NCBI RefSeq assembly: GCF_000719775.1
Contig: NZ_JOHR01000018.1
Coordinates: forward strand, 1-64,000
Reading direction: 5' to 3'
DNA length: 64,000 nucleotides
DNA from: Streptomyces sp. NRRL F-5135
Lineage (GTDB): Bacteria; Actinomycetota; Actinomycetes; Streptomycetales; Streptomycetaceae
Position numbers and translations under genes: made by a program. How positions within the stretch are numbered: the stretch's first letter is position 1; each line of letters begins with the position of its first letter. The notes below the pieces were generated by a model. That model worked only from the letters and a program-made list of their open reading frames with translations. It made no database searches and was not told the origin of the DNA. Positions 27,358 to 31,655 of the stretch are shown here, piece after piece.

Positions 27358-27561
27358 TCAGCGCAGCCGAGCGACGAACGCGCGCCAGGCGGGGCGGCCG
27401 AAACCGATGACGGGCCCGGCGGGACGCTTGCTGTCGCGGACGGGAACGAGACCGGGAACGCCGTCGGCGACCTCGACGCAGTCGCCCTGTCCACCGCTGT
27501 AGCTACTCGGGCGCCATTTCACGCCGTGCACGCCGGTCGGTATGTGGGCTCCGTGGCTCAT
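27358..27561 (-). CDS. DUF397 domain protein
   Basis: The 67-residue protein has the DUF397 signature WRPSSYSGGQGDCVEVAD followed by VPVRDSKRP. DUF397 proteins are small actinobacterial partners of XRE/DUF5753 regulators in whiJ-type loci that influence development. The start overlaps the stop of the upstream XRE gene by four bases, so the two are coexpressed. The biochemical role is unknown. Confidence 0.9.
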   Translation of the reverse strand: MSHGAHIPTGVHGVKWRPSSYSGGQGDCVEVADGVPGLVPVRDSKRPAGPVIGFGRPAWRAFVARLR

Positions 27562-28430: not shown

Positions 28431-28619
28431 ACGTCACTCCCTATCAGGACCGCGCCACCCATCGCCGCCACCTTTCACGAACGAGTGAATTAGGCACCGA
28501 AAACCACAGTCAACGTTGCACGAGTACGCGCGCCACGGGCACGCTGCTGCCCGGCGAACGGCGAACCGCCGCCGCCTCGCTGGAACTTGACCGGCAGCTA
28601 CCGAGCCCCAGGGGGCGCC

Positions 28620-29348
28620 ATGGCAACGCAGTCCGATCCGAGCGACGTCACCTTTCGCGTCGCACGACGCCGTAGCAGCGTCCGCAGAGCCCGAAACCTC
28701 CTGCACGCCATCGCCGGTGGCTGGCACATCGGACAGGAGACACTAGCCGAGGCCGAGTTGGTGCTCTCGGAGCTGGTGACGAACGCCTTACGCGTACCGG
28801 TGCCGGGCGACCGGCTGGTGGAGGTACGGATCGCCCGACTCCCCGAGGACGGGGTCCTGCGGCTGGAGGTCGGCGACGCGGGCGGCGGCAAGCCCGAGGT
28901 CCGCACACCCTCCGAGGACGAGACGGGCGGACGCGGGCTGCTGCTGGTGGACGCACTGACCCACCGCTGGGGATACGAGCCGCGCCCGAGCGGCATCGGA
29001 AAGACGGTCTGGGCAGAGCTCAAGGCGCCGGACATCGCGCCGGAGCCCGAGGAGACCGAGGTTGCCGCGATCACGGTCCGGGCGGGGCAGCGCGTGCGAG
29101 TCTGGGGCGAGTGGCACACCGTTCGCGGCCTGCATGCCAAGACCCACCTTTCGCGAATCCTGGAACAGGTCGCGACCGGCGAAGAGGTAGTGATCAGCAA
29201 AGCGGGAGAGCCCGTGGCCAAAGTGGTGCCGCTGCGCCCCAAAGTGAAGCGGACCGGTCGGGGCTCCCTGCGTGGACGCGTCCACATCCCCGACGATTTC
29301 GACGATCTGCCCGATGACCTCGCCGACGCTTTCGGAATGCTCCGATGA
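28620..29348 (+). CDS. Fusion: RsbW-like ATP-binding protein with C-terminal Phd antitoxin domain
   Basis: The 242-residue protein has two parts. Residues 1 to about 165 form a histidine-kinase-like ATP-binding domain of the whiJ-locus type: LSELVTNALRV (N box), LRLEVGDAGGGKPEV (G1), GGRGLLLVDALTHRWG (G2), plus the usual tail VRAGQRVRVWGEWHTVR. From about residue 170 the sequence becomes a Phd antitoxin lacking only its first few residues (AKTHLSRILEQVATGEEVV, then ISKAGEPVAKVVPL) with a toxin-wrapping tail. The start is ATG at 28620 after AGGGGGCGCC. The stop overlaps the vapC start by four bases, so the fused antitoxin still has its toxin partner. Confidence 0.85.
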   Translation: MATQSDPSDVTFRVARRRSSVRRARNLLHAIAGGWHIGQETLAEAELVLSELVTNALRVPVPGDRLVEVRIARLPEDGVLRLEVGDAGGGKPEVRTPSEDETGGRGLLLVDALTHRWGYEPRPSGIGKTVWAELKAPDIAPEPEETEVAAITVRAGQRVRVWGEWHTVRGLHAKTHLSRILEQVATGEEVVISKAGEPVAKVVPLRPKVKRTGRGSLRGRVHIPDDFDDLPDDLADAFGMLR

Positions 29349-29719
29349 AACTGCTTCTCGACACTCATGTGGTCCTGTGGTGGCTGGACGACTCGCCCGA
29401 GTTGTCCGACGAGGTGAAGGATCTGCTGGACACGGAGCCCGCTGTACACGTCAGCGCGGTCACCCCGTGGGAGATCACCGTCAAGCAGTCTCTCGGGGAG
29501 CTGAAGGGGCCGGAGGACCTCGCTGAGCGCGTACGGGACTGCCAGTTCGGCGGCCTGCCCGTCACTGCCGGGCACGGGGTGCGCGCGGGCCGGCTTCCGG
29601 CACACCACCGCGATCCCTTCGACCGGATACTGGTCGCGCAGGCTCAGGTCGAAGGGATGACACTCGTGACACGGGACAAGTGGATCCCTGAGTACGACGT
29701 GCAGGTCATGACCGCCTGA
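29345..29719 (+). CDS. VapC-type PIN-domain toxin
   Basis: The 124-residue protein is a full-length PIN ribonuclease with acidic residues in LLLDTHVVLWWL (Asp6), SAVTPWEITVKQ (Glu43), RDPFDRILVAQAQ and the C-terminal TRDKW. VapC proteins cleave tRNA or rRNA when not bound by antitoxin. The antitoxin is the C-terminal domain of the upstream fusion gene (ATGA overlap), not a separate protein. Confidence 0.9.
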   Translation: MKLLLDTHVVLWWLDDSPELSDEVKDLLDTEPAVHVSAVTPWEITVKQSLGELKGPEDLAERVRDCQFGGLPVTAGHGVRAGRLPAHHRDPFDRILVAQAQVEGMTLVTRDKWIPEYDVQVMTA

Positions 29720-29845: not shown

Positions 29846-31318
29846 TCAGAAACCGTTGTTGGAGGCGCTGCCGTTGCCGCTTCCGTCGCCGGCGTCGCCG
29901 ACTCCGTTGCCGCTGCCGTTGCCCGCGGCGCCGCCGTTGTTGCCGACGGCTCCCTCGCCGTTGTCACCCTGGCCCTGGTCGCCGATGCCCGCGTTGGCTC
30001 CCGCGTCGCCCTGTCCCTGGCCCTGGTCACCCGCGCCCGCGCCGCCGTTCAGGCCCTCGTCACCAACGCCCGCGTTGGCACCCGCGCCGCCTTCCTCACC
30101 GGCGCCGCCGTTCAGGCCCTCGTCGCCGGCACCGGCGTTGGCGCCCTCGTCGCCCGCGCCCGCGTTCGCGCCCTCGTCACCGGCGCCACCCTCACCGGCG
30201 CCGCCGCCCGCGTCGCCCGCGCCGATCTGGGCGCCGACCGCCGCCAGGGCCGTCGTCACCGGCTGGAAGAAGGTCTCCCCGCCGACCGTGCAGTCGCCGC
30301 TGCCGCCCGACGTCAGGCCGACGGCGCCGCCGTCCGCCGTGAAGAGGGGGCCGCCGCTGTCGCCCGGCTCGGCGCAGACGTCGGTCTGGATGAGGCCGGT
30401 GACCGTGCCCTCCGCGTAGTTGACGGTGGCGTCGAGGCCCGTGACCGTACCGTCGTTCAGGCCGGTCGTGCTGCCCATGCGGATGACGTCCTGGCCGACC
30501 TGCGCCTCGACCGCCGCGTTGATGTCCACGACCTGGTCGCCGGTGTTCACCGTGGACGTGGCCTCGGTCGCGGCGTCGTCGTACGTGGCGAGCGCGAAGT
30601 CACCCTCGCCCGGGAAGGTCGCGGCCTGGATCGTGGCCACCGGCTCCCCGTCCTGGGCGTCCGACCACGCCTCGGTGGCGACACCGCAGTGGCCCGCCGT
30701 GATGAAGCCGGGGGCGCCGTCCTGCGTGGTGACGTTGAAGCCGAGGGAGCAGCGCGCGCCGCCGCCGAAGATCGCGTCGCCGCCCTCGGCGAACGTCGTG
30801 AACTCGCCCTGCGACCGCTTGACCCGGGCCACGTCCTGGCCCAGCGACTGGACGGTGGACTCCAGCTTCGTCCAGTTCTCGTCGGTGACCGTACGGTCCG
30901 CCGTGACCTGGATCTGATTGGTCTTCGGGTCGACGGACCAGGCGGTGCCCGGAATGGTCGCCTGCTGCTTCAGCGTCTGCGATGCGGACTTCAGCTGCGC
31001 CGTACTGTTCTTGACATTTCTGACGACGGCGCCGGCCTCCTGGGCCCGGAGTTCGATCTTGTTGTTGTCACCGACGACATTGATGACGAGCTGCTGCTTG
31101 TCCTTGTCGTAATACGAGCCCGCGAATGCCTCGCCCAATTGCGAGGCGAGCTGCGAGGCGAGGTCGCTCGCGGATGCGGCGCTCAACGCCTTGGGCGACG
31201 TGTCCGGCGCGTCCTGGGAGGCATTGGCGTTGGGCAGCAGAATCGCAGCCGCCGCGATGGCCGCGGCGCCACCGCCGGCGAAAACGAGCTTCCGCTTGGG
31301 TATGCGTTTGTGGCTCAA
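29846..31318 (-). CDS. Secreted streptogrisin-like serine protease with long repetitive tail
   Basis: The 490-residue S1-family prepro-protease has a signal peptide (basic KRIPKRK, hydrophobic core, cleavage after NANA near residue 30), then a propeptide (about 35-165). The mature domain has the catalytic triad His in ITAGHCG, Asp in EGDFAL and Ser in EPGDSGGP. The last 140 residues are a Gly/Ala/Asp/Glu/Asn-rich repeat region (units like GAGDEGANA) with no LPXTG or membrane anchor. The start is an uncommon TTG at 31318: AGGAGG lies seven bases upstream, and the first sensible ATG would be much further upstream in non-homologous sequence. Confidence 0.88.
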   Translation of the reverse strand: MSHKRIPKRKLVFAGGGAAAIAAAAILLPNANASQDAPDTSPKALSAASASDLASQLASQLGEAFAGSYYDKDKQQLVINVVGDNNKIELRAQEAGAVVRNVKNSTAQLKSASQTLKQQATIPGTAWSVDPKTNQIQVTADRTVTDENWTKLESTVQSLGQDVARVKRSQGEFTTFAEGGDAIFGGGARCSLGFNVTTQDGAPGFITAGHCGVATEAWSDAQDGEPVATIQAATFPGEGDFALATYDDAATEATSTVNTGDQVVDINAAVEAQVGQDVIRMGSTTGLNDGTVTGLDATVNYAEGTVTGLIQTDVCAEPGDSGGPLFTADGGAVGLTSGGSGDCTVGGETFFQPVTTALAAVGAQIGAGDAGGGAGEGGAGDEGANAGAGDEGANAGAGDEGLNGGAGEEGGAGANAGVGDEGLNGGAGAGDQGQGQGDAGANAGIGDQGQGDNGEGAVGNNGGAAGNGSGNGVGDAGDGSGNGSASNNGF

Positions 31319-31655
31319 CTCAAGACCTCCTGTGGGGGACGAAAGTCCGCTCGCCGGCAGCAGACGAAGAATGCTTCGGGTATTCATACGGAGCCGAACC
31401 ACGGTGTGTTCAAACGGAGTTCCAAAAAATCGGCCCCCGCCCGGTCCCCGGCGCCCCGGAGCGGCGTAACGGCCGGTGGGCGGGCCCGTGGGGGGAGCGT
31501 GGGGCCCGCGCACCCGGCCCCCACCTCACCCGCACCTCCCGTCGGTGGCATCACCCCGACCGACATCACCCGAGGGGGAGTTGTGACGACCGCCGAAGAG
31601 ACCCCACAGCAACTGACCGCGCTGGGGCCGGACGACCCGCGGGAGGTCTCCGGCC
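31319..31655. other. Gap between protease and response regulator
   Basis: 337 bases hold the protease promoter region (minus strand; AT-richer around 31370-31430, ATTCATACGG and TTCAAACGGAG) and, on the plus strand, a possible kinase N-terminal remnant annotated separately. Confidence 0.4.

Follow-up and report, generated by a model that had tools for sequence, protein, structure and literature searches.

A phd antitoxin gene fused to abaA ahead of vapC in Streptomyces sp. NRRL F-5135 suggests capture of a toxin–antitoxin pair by a WhiJ/BldB/AbaA switch

In the 64,000-nucleotide stretch of Streptomyces sp. NRRL F-5135 analysed here (contig NZ_JOHR01000018.1, positions 1 to 64,000; hereafter the window), a gene for an AbaA-type ATP-binding protein runs in one open frame into a gene for a Phd antitoxin, and a gene for a VapC toxin follows with a short overlap. 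The fused gene is divergent from whiJ-type and bldB-type genes. We consider it moderately probable that a phd-vapC pair was captured by this WhiJ/BldB/AbaA switch, and that a deletion made the fusion and moved control of the pair to the abaA promoter and a TTA codon. The operon contains the following features.

28620..29348, plus strand: fused abaA-phd gene, 242 residues (open frame with two Pfam domains)
28674..29012, plus strand: HATPase_c_2 domain (PF13581) of the SpoIIAB/RsbW fold, residues 19-131 (Pfam 49.7 bits, cut-off 27.4)
29052..29135, plus strand: first part of the EF-P-like beta domain of AbaA, about three of six strands (from the P0002 model)
29094..29096, plus strand: in-frame GTG, a possible start of a free 84-residue antitoxin (from the sequence)
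29136..29138, plus strand: junction codon, Ala173 (comparison with free phd copies and P0002)
29136..29345, plus strand: Phd antitoxin without its first 11 residues (PF02604, TIGR01552 and alignment)
29345..29719, plus strand: VapC toxin, PIN domain (PF01850 64.1 bits, cut-off 23.6)

The frame 28620-29348 is open through the junction and encodes a HATPase followed by a Phd domain, both passing their Pfam cut-offs, as the initial annotation had proposed. Neither the fused gene nor vapC contains a stop or frame shift, and GC content by codon position remains coding-like across the join. The Phd part had been described as short of its first few residues; relative to free-standing copies (MEAARQYNVHEAKTH...), 11 are missing. 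The VapC is full-length, carries a PIN domain and overlaps the end of the fusion by four bases (ATGA), again as first described. The GTG at 29094-29096 is located in a stretch also present in unfused relatives. The suspicion that the junction is a recombination product is consistent with a deletion-like join that put the neutralising part of Phd on the ATP-binding protein of a WhiJ locus and retained VapC. An assembly or sequencing error could also have produced the junction, given a draft of 116 contigs and the absence of the whole fusion from the protein collection searched. However, the join sits inside a 159-kb contig, the frame is kept and the two genes are neighbours in the same order elsewhere; we regard such an error as extremely unlikely.

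When the same two-domain architecture was sought, the whole form was found in no other genome or protein examined, but merging of AbaA with Phd recurred at other junctions. Among overlapping sets of 295, 61 and 392 genomes, only the own genome carried the whole fusion; a protein search with the junction region gave a single match, P0003, whose junction differs, and a plasmid search with the fusion gave none at 1e-15. The idea that the full fusion is widespread was therefore rejected. The locus L005, considered as a second full-length fusion, was also rejected, as it contains an abaA gene, then a stop and then the start of an AAA-like frame. PADLOC assigned no family to the fusion or to VapC, and a promoter and terminator scan found none.

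The ATP-binding part has the GHKL fold of the SpoIIAB/RsbW anti-sigma kinases. Its ATP-site motifs ELVTN, DAGGG and GGRGL, which are invariant in the family alignment, are retained in the fused frame. A Foldseek search with an AlphaFold model of the fusion matched 8ih8_C (E 2.5e-07) and SpoIIAB (1til_E, E 1.6e-06), and the curated anti-sigma models stayed below their cut-offs (TIGR01925, 15.6 bits vs 135; NF041045, 25.1 vs 210). For folding, alignments A1 and A2 were left out because the Phd and HATPase parts were badly placed, and A3 was used, whose Phd rows remain misplaced at their first residues.

It had been assumed that the ATP-binding partner normally ends soon after its VRVWGEWHTVR motif; this proved wrong, as the relatives continue as an EF-P-like beta domain. 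In the model of the nearest relative, P0002, a confident closed beta domain follows the HTVR region; its strands at 142-146, 155-158 and 161-172 are kept in the fusion, and those at 179-185, 191-194 and 198-202 are lost. We also counted the extension in 67 relative loci, drawn from two samples (41 + 40, minus 14 duplicates). The first comprised the best 41 of 80 loci (L034-L074; 39 weaker ones were left out), and its search patterns contained a Phd stretch and thus favour loci with Phd. The second, less biased sample came from the 42 of 392 Streptomyces genomes with an abaA relative at E 1e-38 to P0003, which itself ends in a Phd tail; 40 loci and the own genome were taken and G356 was left out. 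By mechanical count, 56 of the 67 loci extend 41-100 residues beyond the first Trp of the motif. The remaining 11 comprise L177, a long protein missed by the pattern, and ten shorter frames, none of which ends right after the motif (L035 stops just before it). This count and the P0002 model led us to reject an ATP-binding family ending at the HTVR motif. The partner is AbaA-like, and it has lost half of its second domain: where complete members of the subfamily have a C-terminal beta domain, the second half is replaced by Phd.

The Phd/YefM match (residues 173-205) is barely over its cut-off (30.9 bits vs 29.8), and the Phd family model TIGR01552 gave 32.7 bits (cut-off 20.8). The tail is complete and matches the free copies; the N-terminal dimerising, DNA-binding domain is incomplete, with the first 11 residues missing. 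The two domains, Phd/YefM and PIN, lie in one operon with the antitoxin first, as in Phd-VapC pairs. In a sequence search of the PDB, the best match to the Phd part was 3dbo_A (E 0.0011), and VapC had none at E 0.01. For comparison, 22 phd copies at other sites (including L032 and L033) were taken of at least 25 found. After L193, L201 and L202, whose vapC is damaged, were dropped and L196 and L204 were counted apart, all 17 aligned free-standing VapCs shared the acidic positions D6, E43, D90, D93 and D111 of the window's VapC; L196 has DEDDD and L204 has A at the last position. In the own genome, this locus was the sole match at E 1e-3 both for the Phd part and for VapC. The tail of Phd/YefM antitoxins folds on the toxin (as described in PMC4803016), and a Streptomyces VapBC pair with an RHH-type antitoxin has been reported as functional in E. 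coli (PMC4963828). Because its Phd tail is complete and no other close antitoxin copy was found in the genome, the fusion probably still neutralises VapC.

On the other side of the promoter region, and in the region itself, we identified the remaining elements of the locus.

27358..27561, minus strand: bldB-type (DUF397) gene (PF04149 72.9 bits, cut-off 24; naming after PMC10294661)
27558..28430, minus strand: whiJ-type gene, XRE helix-turn-helix and DUF5753 (PF19054 192.2 bits, PF13560 64 bits)
28511..28519, strandless: CAACGTTGC, probably a WhiJ-type operator; this near-palindrome is shared by whiJ-abaA promoter regions and lies 100 bp ahead of the abaA start
28788..28790, plus strand: TTA codon, Leu57, possible bldA dependence (from the sequence)

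A DUF397 gene adjoins an XRE/DUF5753 gene, an AbaA-type HATPase_c gene is divergent from them, and relatives are arranged alike. According to PMC10294661 and PMC4255298, the XRE/DUF5753 proteins of such loci are WhiJ paralogues, the DUF397 proteins are BldB paralogues and the adjoining HATPases are AbaA-like; the three genes for the other domains are thus paralogues of bldB, whiJ and abaA. The NCBIfam model nearest to the whiJ-type protein, NF058600 (the Sco1979 family), scored 266 bits, below its cut-off of 350.

The DNA elements that were lost and kept carry the argument for capture. Free-standing phd copies are preceded by an operator-like repeat, CTTAGTCCA-N3-CTTAGTCCA; 16 of the 22 copies have one or more YTAGTCC at a distance of 28-49 bp upstream of phd, and paired occurrences are 12 bp apart (11 in L190). 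The operators of E. coli YefM also have a 12-bp centre spacing (PMC4803016). Between whiJ and vapC, YTAGTCC is absent from the window and from all 15 loci of a derived clade described below, and is present in L039, L050 and L048. Within the window, CTTAGTCCA with at most one mismatch occurs only at 30866 and 56940, so that the antitoxin has no such operator upstream. The promoter palindrome is retained: of the 65 intergenic regions between whiJ and abaA (that of the window among them), 53 contain AACGTTGC, mostly 83-121 bp ahead of abaA, and the best 8-mer over five shuffles occurred in 5-6 regions, a comparison between related loci from which no probability is derivable. Both the window and 14 of 17 other loci with an adjacent phd-vapC pair have retained it. 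We infer that the palindrome is probably a WhiJ site. In S. venezuelae, WhiJ9 is required to activate iosA and binds repeats 113 bp upstream of it, and expression of all five abaA genes increases when BldB is lost (PMC10294661). Unlike the palindrome found here, the repeat published for WhiJ9, CGXXCTCAAC, is direct. Finally, TTA codons were found in 14 of the 67 abaA relatives, in none at the Leu57 position, and in none of 18 vapC genes; in S. coelicolor, 147 chromosomal genes contain TTA (PMC4255298). Synthesis of the antitoxin must pass the TTA in the fusion and need not do so in the unfused relatives, unless translation is coupled. The loss of the operator-like repeat, the retention of the palindrome and the TTA codon in the fused frame together suggest transcriptional and translational capture.

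We propose the following course of events. A phd-vapC pair would first have settled downstream of abaA in a bldB-whiJ-abaA cassette. A deletion of about 0.26-0.31 kb, if the old spacing resembled that of L039 or L050, may then have fused phd to abaA, removing the second half of the AbaA beta domain, the phd promoter, the operator-like repeat and the first 11 Phd residues, which are part of the dimerising, DNA-binding fold. The pair would thereby have exchanged control by its own operator for a place on the abaA transcript. The Phd tail would neutralise VapC, with the HATPase part as a carrier that may still do the work of AbaA. Expression of the antitoxin and, via ATGA coupling, of the toxin would depend on the abaA promoter. 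If this behaves like that of iosA in S. venezuelae, the adjacent WhiJ would activate it and BldB-type proteins would repress it. Little of either protein would be expected under BldB-type repression, and both would be made when WhiJ activates and the bldA tRNA is present; through the TTA codon, control has perhaps also passed to bldA.

Several observations weigh against this capture. P0002, whose AbaA part is 91% identical, is unfused. From residue 142 onward the AlphaFold model of the fusion is of low confidence, and it contains no replacement for the missing first Phd strand; 'HTVRGLH' is only a candidate for that role. The own-genome search covered close copies only, and more distant antitoxins may be present in the genome. 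The palindrome is missing from L050, L058 and L059, all with adjacent phd-vapC. The substitution counts against relatives (VapC versus five relatives, dN 0.077-0.081 and dS 0.68-0.83; Phd part, five pairs, dN 0.035-0.107 and dS 0.61-0.75), of which those of VapC would otherwise speak for capture, mostly reflect the time before the fusion and are not assignable to the time after it, and selection on the fusion is not measurable because the whole form occurs in a single genome. Two further proteins, P0055 and P0097, are fusions that retain the Phd tail after a cut AbaA, and the related fusion L055 has no VapC within the 4 kb examined. The six of 22 phd copies without YTAGTCC are all damaged (vapC in L193, L201 and L202; the start of phd in L195 and L204; a CTG start of vapC in L205), so that loss of the repeat may accompany decay.

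Many of these points would fit decay, in which a recent accidental deletion left a fusion that works neither as AbaA nor as an antitoxin under regulation, with vapC barely expressed or not yet lost. The restriction of the full fusion to one genome, the cuts in the AbaA beta domain and the Phd N-terminus, the vanished repeat, and the reduction of other AbaA-Phd fusions to a tail, without VapC in L055, are all compatible with it. However, neither gene has a stop or shift, the five acidic positions of VapC are intact and the Phd tail resembles that of free copies, whereas loss or breakage, as seen in L193, L201 and L202, would be the expected fate of a toxin deprived of its antitoxin. We treat decay as a serious rival to capture, and as an unlikely one.

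Capture is also consistent with the recurrence of the association. A protein search gave 797 matches, of which the best 120 were listed and 24 sequences picked by eye were inspected. Among these 24, P0003 and P0010 consist of a complete AbaA followed by a Phd tail, P0055 and P0097 have the tail after a cut AbaA, P0004 has a derived antitoxin and P0007 a remnant of the tail. In the AbaA tree, the mergers occupied four positions distinct from that of the window, some of them modestly supported. We take this to represent at least four separate merger events besides that of the window; no rate follows, since the 24 were picked by eye from the best 120 of 797. Taken over related genomes, phd-vapC pairs seem to have settled behind abaA several times.

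The slot behind abaA was examined in the same 67 loci. VapC was found in 18, and in 17 it was adjacent, with phd directly behind abaA; 15 of these 17 belong to one clade. In the less biased sample, phd-vapC stood behind abaA in 10 of 41 loci, window included. The locus L048 was not counted as adjacent, because another frame, which resembles a tyrosyl-tRNA synthetase gene, separates abaA and phd; an AAA gene had first been expected there and was not borne out by this frame. Two of the 22 other phd sites, L196 and L204, follow an abaA paralogue that is more distant. In L204 (1980-2174), the Phd is shortened with loss of its N-terminal part, and its likely ATG start is inside the end of the abaA paralogue in another frame. 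In the VapC tree, the pairs of the window, L039, L050, L196 and L204 did not group together, and most forks were weak.

As a separate observation on this slot, a gene of the AAA_21 type was found behind abaA in six of the 67 loci (L044, L049, L150, L153, L154 and L155). In the one tested, L044 (4747-6015), the best PADLOC match was HEC-01A, and the protein has a Phd neutralising tail at its end, with no VapC.

The 15 clustered loci (L056, L058, L059, L061, L062, L068-L071, L167, L168, L172 and L182-L184, from S. atratus, S. clavifer, S. griseus BIG105 and others) group as a single clade of the VapC tree, with support of 100/99. In the AbaA tree, they lie inside an 18-row clade (100/99) that also holds P0004 and the pairless L072 and L164. 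In all 14 loci considered (L068 left out), an overlap of exactly 4 bp joins the abaA stop to an ATG or GTG, and the frame opened there reaches vapC in 12 of the 14, being shifted in L058 and L167. The N-terminus of the antitoxin is new, mostly V[KR]xLWxRFRRR..., and the tail GRGSLRGxIxI is kept. The three of these antitoxins that were tested fall below the Pfam Phd cut-off (L056 with 14.1 bits; L062 and the shortened L059 without a match). The median dN/dS of the antitoxin in 12 loci was 0.59 before the GRGSL tail and 0.30 from it on (66 and 64 pairs), and that of VapC was 0.25 in the clade (91 pairs) vs 0.21 in free copies (136 pairs). At the last of the five VapC acidic positions, 14 of 15 loci have N or S, and L061 and L167 are short of one more. 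Asparagine at or near this position is common in PIN toxins; we therefore claim only a change of residue for these VapCs. In L070, L182, L183 and L184, abaA stops before the beta domain, right at the start of phd. Two oddities were also seen: in L068 (4678-5310), the derived Phd and a VapC lacking its start share one reading frame, and the phd gene of L168 (genome G057) has a long proline run between the antitoxin halves.

The clade bears on a further proposal, raised with the initial annotation, that binding of ATP by the HATPase part sets whether the attached Phd part holds VapC. Proteins of the SpoIIAB type switch partner with nucleotide, and the three ATP-site motifs are kept in the fusion, both of which would suit such a gate. 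However, the AlphaFold model shows no structural coupling, and the 15 loci of the derived clade, L039 and L050 manage with AbaA and antitoxin as separate proteins. None of the findings supports control of toxin release at the protein level, whether by ATP state or by binding of the XRE protein as first suggested. ATP-gated release is not needed to explain the findings, and we judge it very unlikely.

Setting the captured operon beside known systems, it resembles the bldB-whiJ-abaA loci, such as iosA-whiJ9-bldB9 of S. venezuelae (PMC10294661) and those of the SCO1979/SCO1980 type (PMC4255298), in having the DUF397 and XRE genes on one strand, a divergent HATPase gene, a promoter-region palindrome about 100 bp before that gene and a TTA codon, as in many AbaA-like genes. 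In contrast, the AbaA of the window has a cut second domain, carries an antitoxin and is followed by a toxin gene, and the available portions of the published descriptions include no such pair. It shares with the Phd/YefM-VapC type II pairs the gene order, the overlapping genes, the complete neutralising tail and the PIN acidic positions of free Streptomyces copies; unlike in those pairs, the antitoxin belongs to an ATP-binding protein and is missing both its first 11 residues and the operator-like repeat. The abaA-phd-vapC operon of S. atratus and S. clavifer likewise has phd-vapC directly behind abaA, no YTAGTCC and an altered antitoxin N-terminus, but there the antitoxin has a gene of its own, which overlaps the end of abaA by 4 bp, and the last acid of VapC is mostly replaced. 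In its proposed working, the operon would resemble the tripartite omega-epsilon-zeta system (PMC4803016), in which a separate regulator is present and the antitoxin does not regulate, although the proteins are unrelated and the regulator there lies within the same operon. The initial annotation held the link to be undescribed, and a literature search, with many subscription papers outside its reach, gave no toxin–antitoxin pair in, or fused to, abaA. XRE-DUF397 pairs have themselves been proposed as toxin–antitoxin pairs (PMC2701414, PMC4239341), and one such pair did not behave as one (PMC6262351); that proposal is separate from the VapC case described here. Downstream of vapC, an open frame on the minus strand (29846-31513) has a long Gly/Ala/Asn-rich repetitive C-terminal tail, and we take it to resemble a trypsin-like secreted protease.

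A broader and more tentative idea, which we hold to be possible, is that WhiJ and BldB act as a developmental switch whose outputs can be exchanged, a domesticated Phd-VapC being one that recurs, and that the fusion would let development, through WhiJ/BldB and bldA, directly set the toxin balance. Its basis is that phd-vapC occupies the slot behind abaA in 17 of the 67 loci and a gene resembling a candidate phage-defence AAA protein does so in six, and that in the derived clade the pair has joined the operon and has an antitoxin with a rebuilt N-terminus, the DNA-binding end of other Phd proteins. The role of the many WhiJ/BldB/AbaA copies in Streptomyces is a long-standing open question, and a toxin that sits inside such an operon and has lost its own repressor site would provide the switch with a measurable output. 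The locus suggests a route by which a host circuit may take over a selfish toxin–antitoxin pair, in which the operator and the DNA-binding end of the antitoxin would be dispensable and the neutralising tail would be retained.
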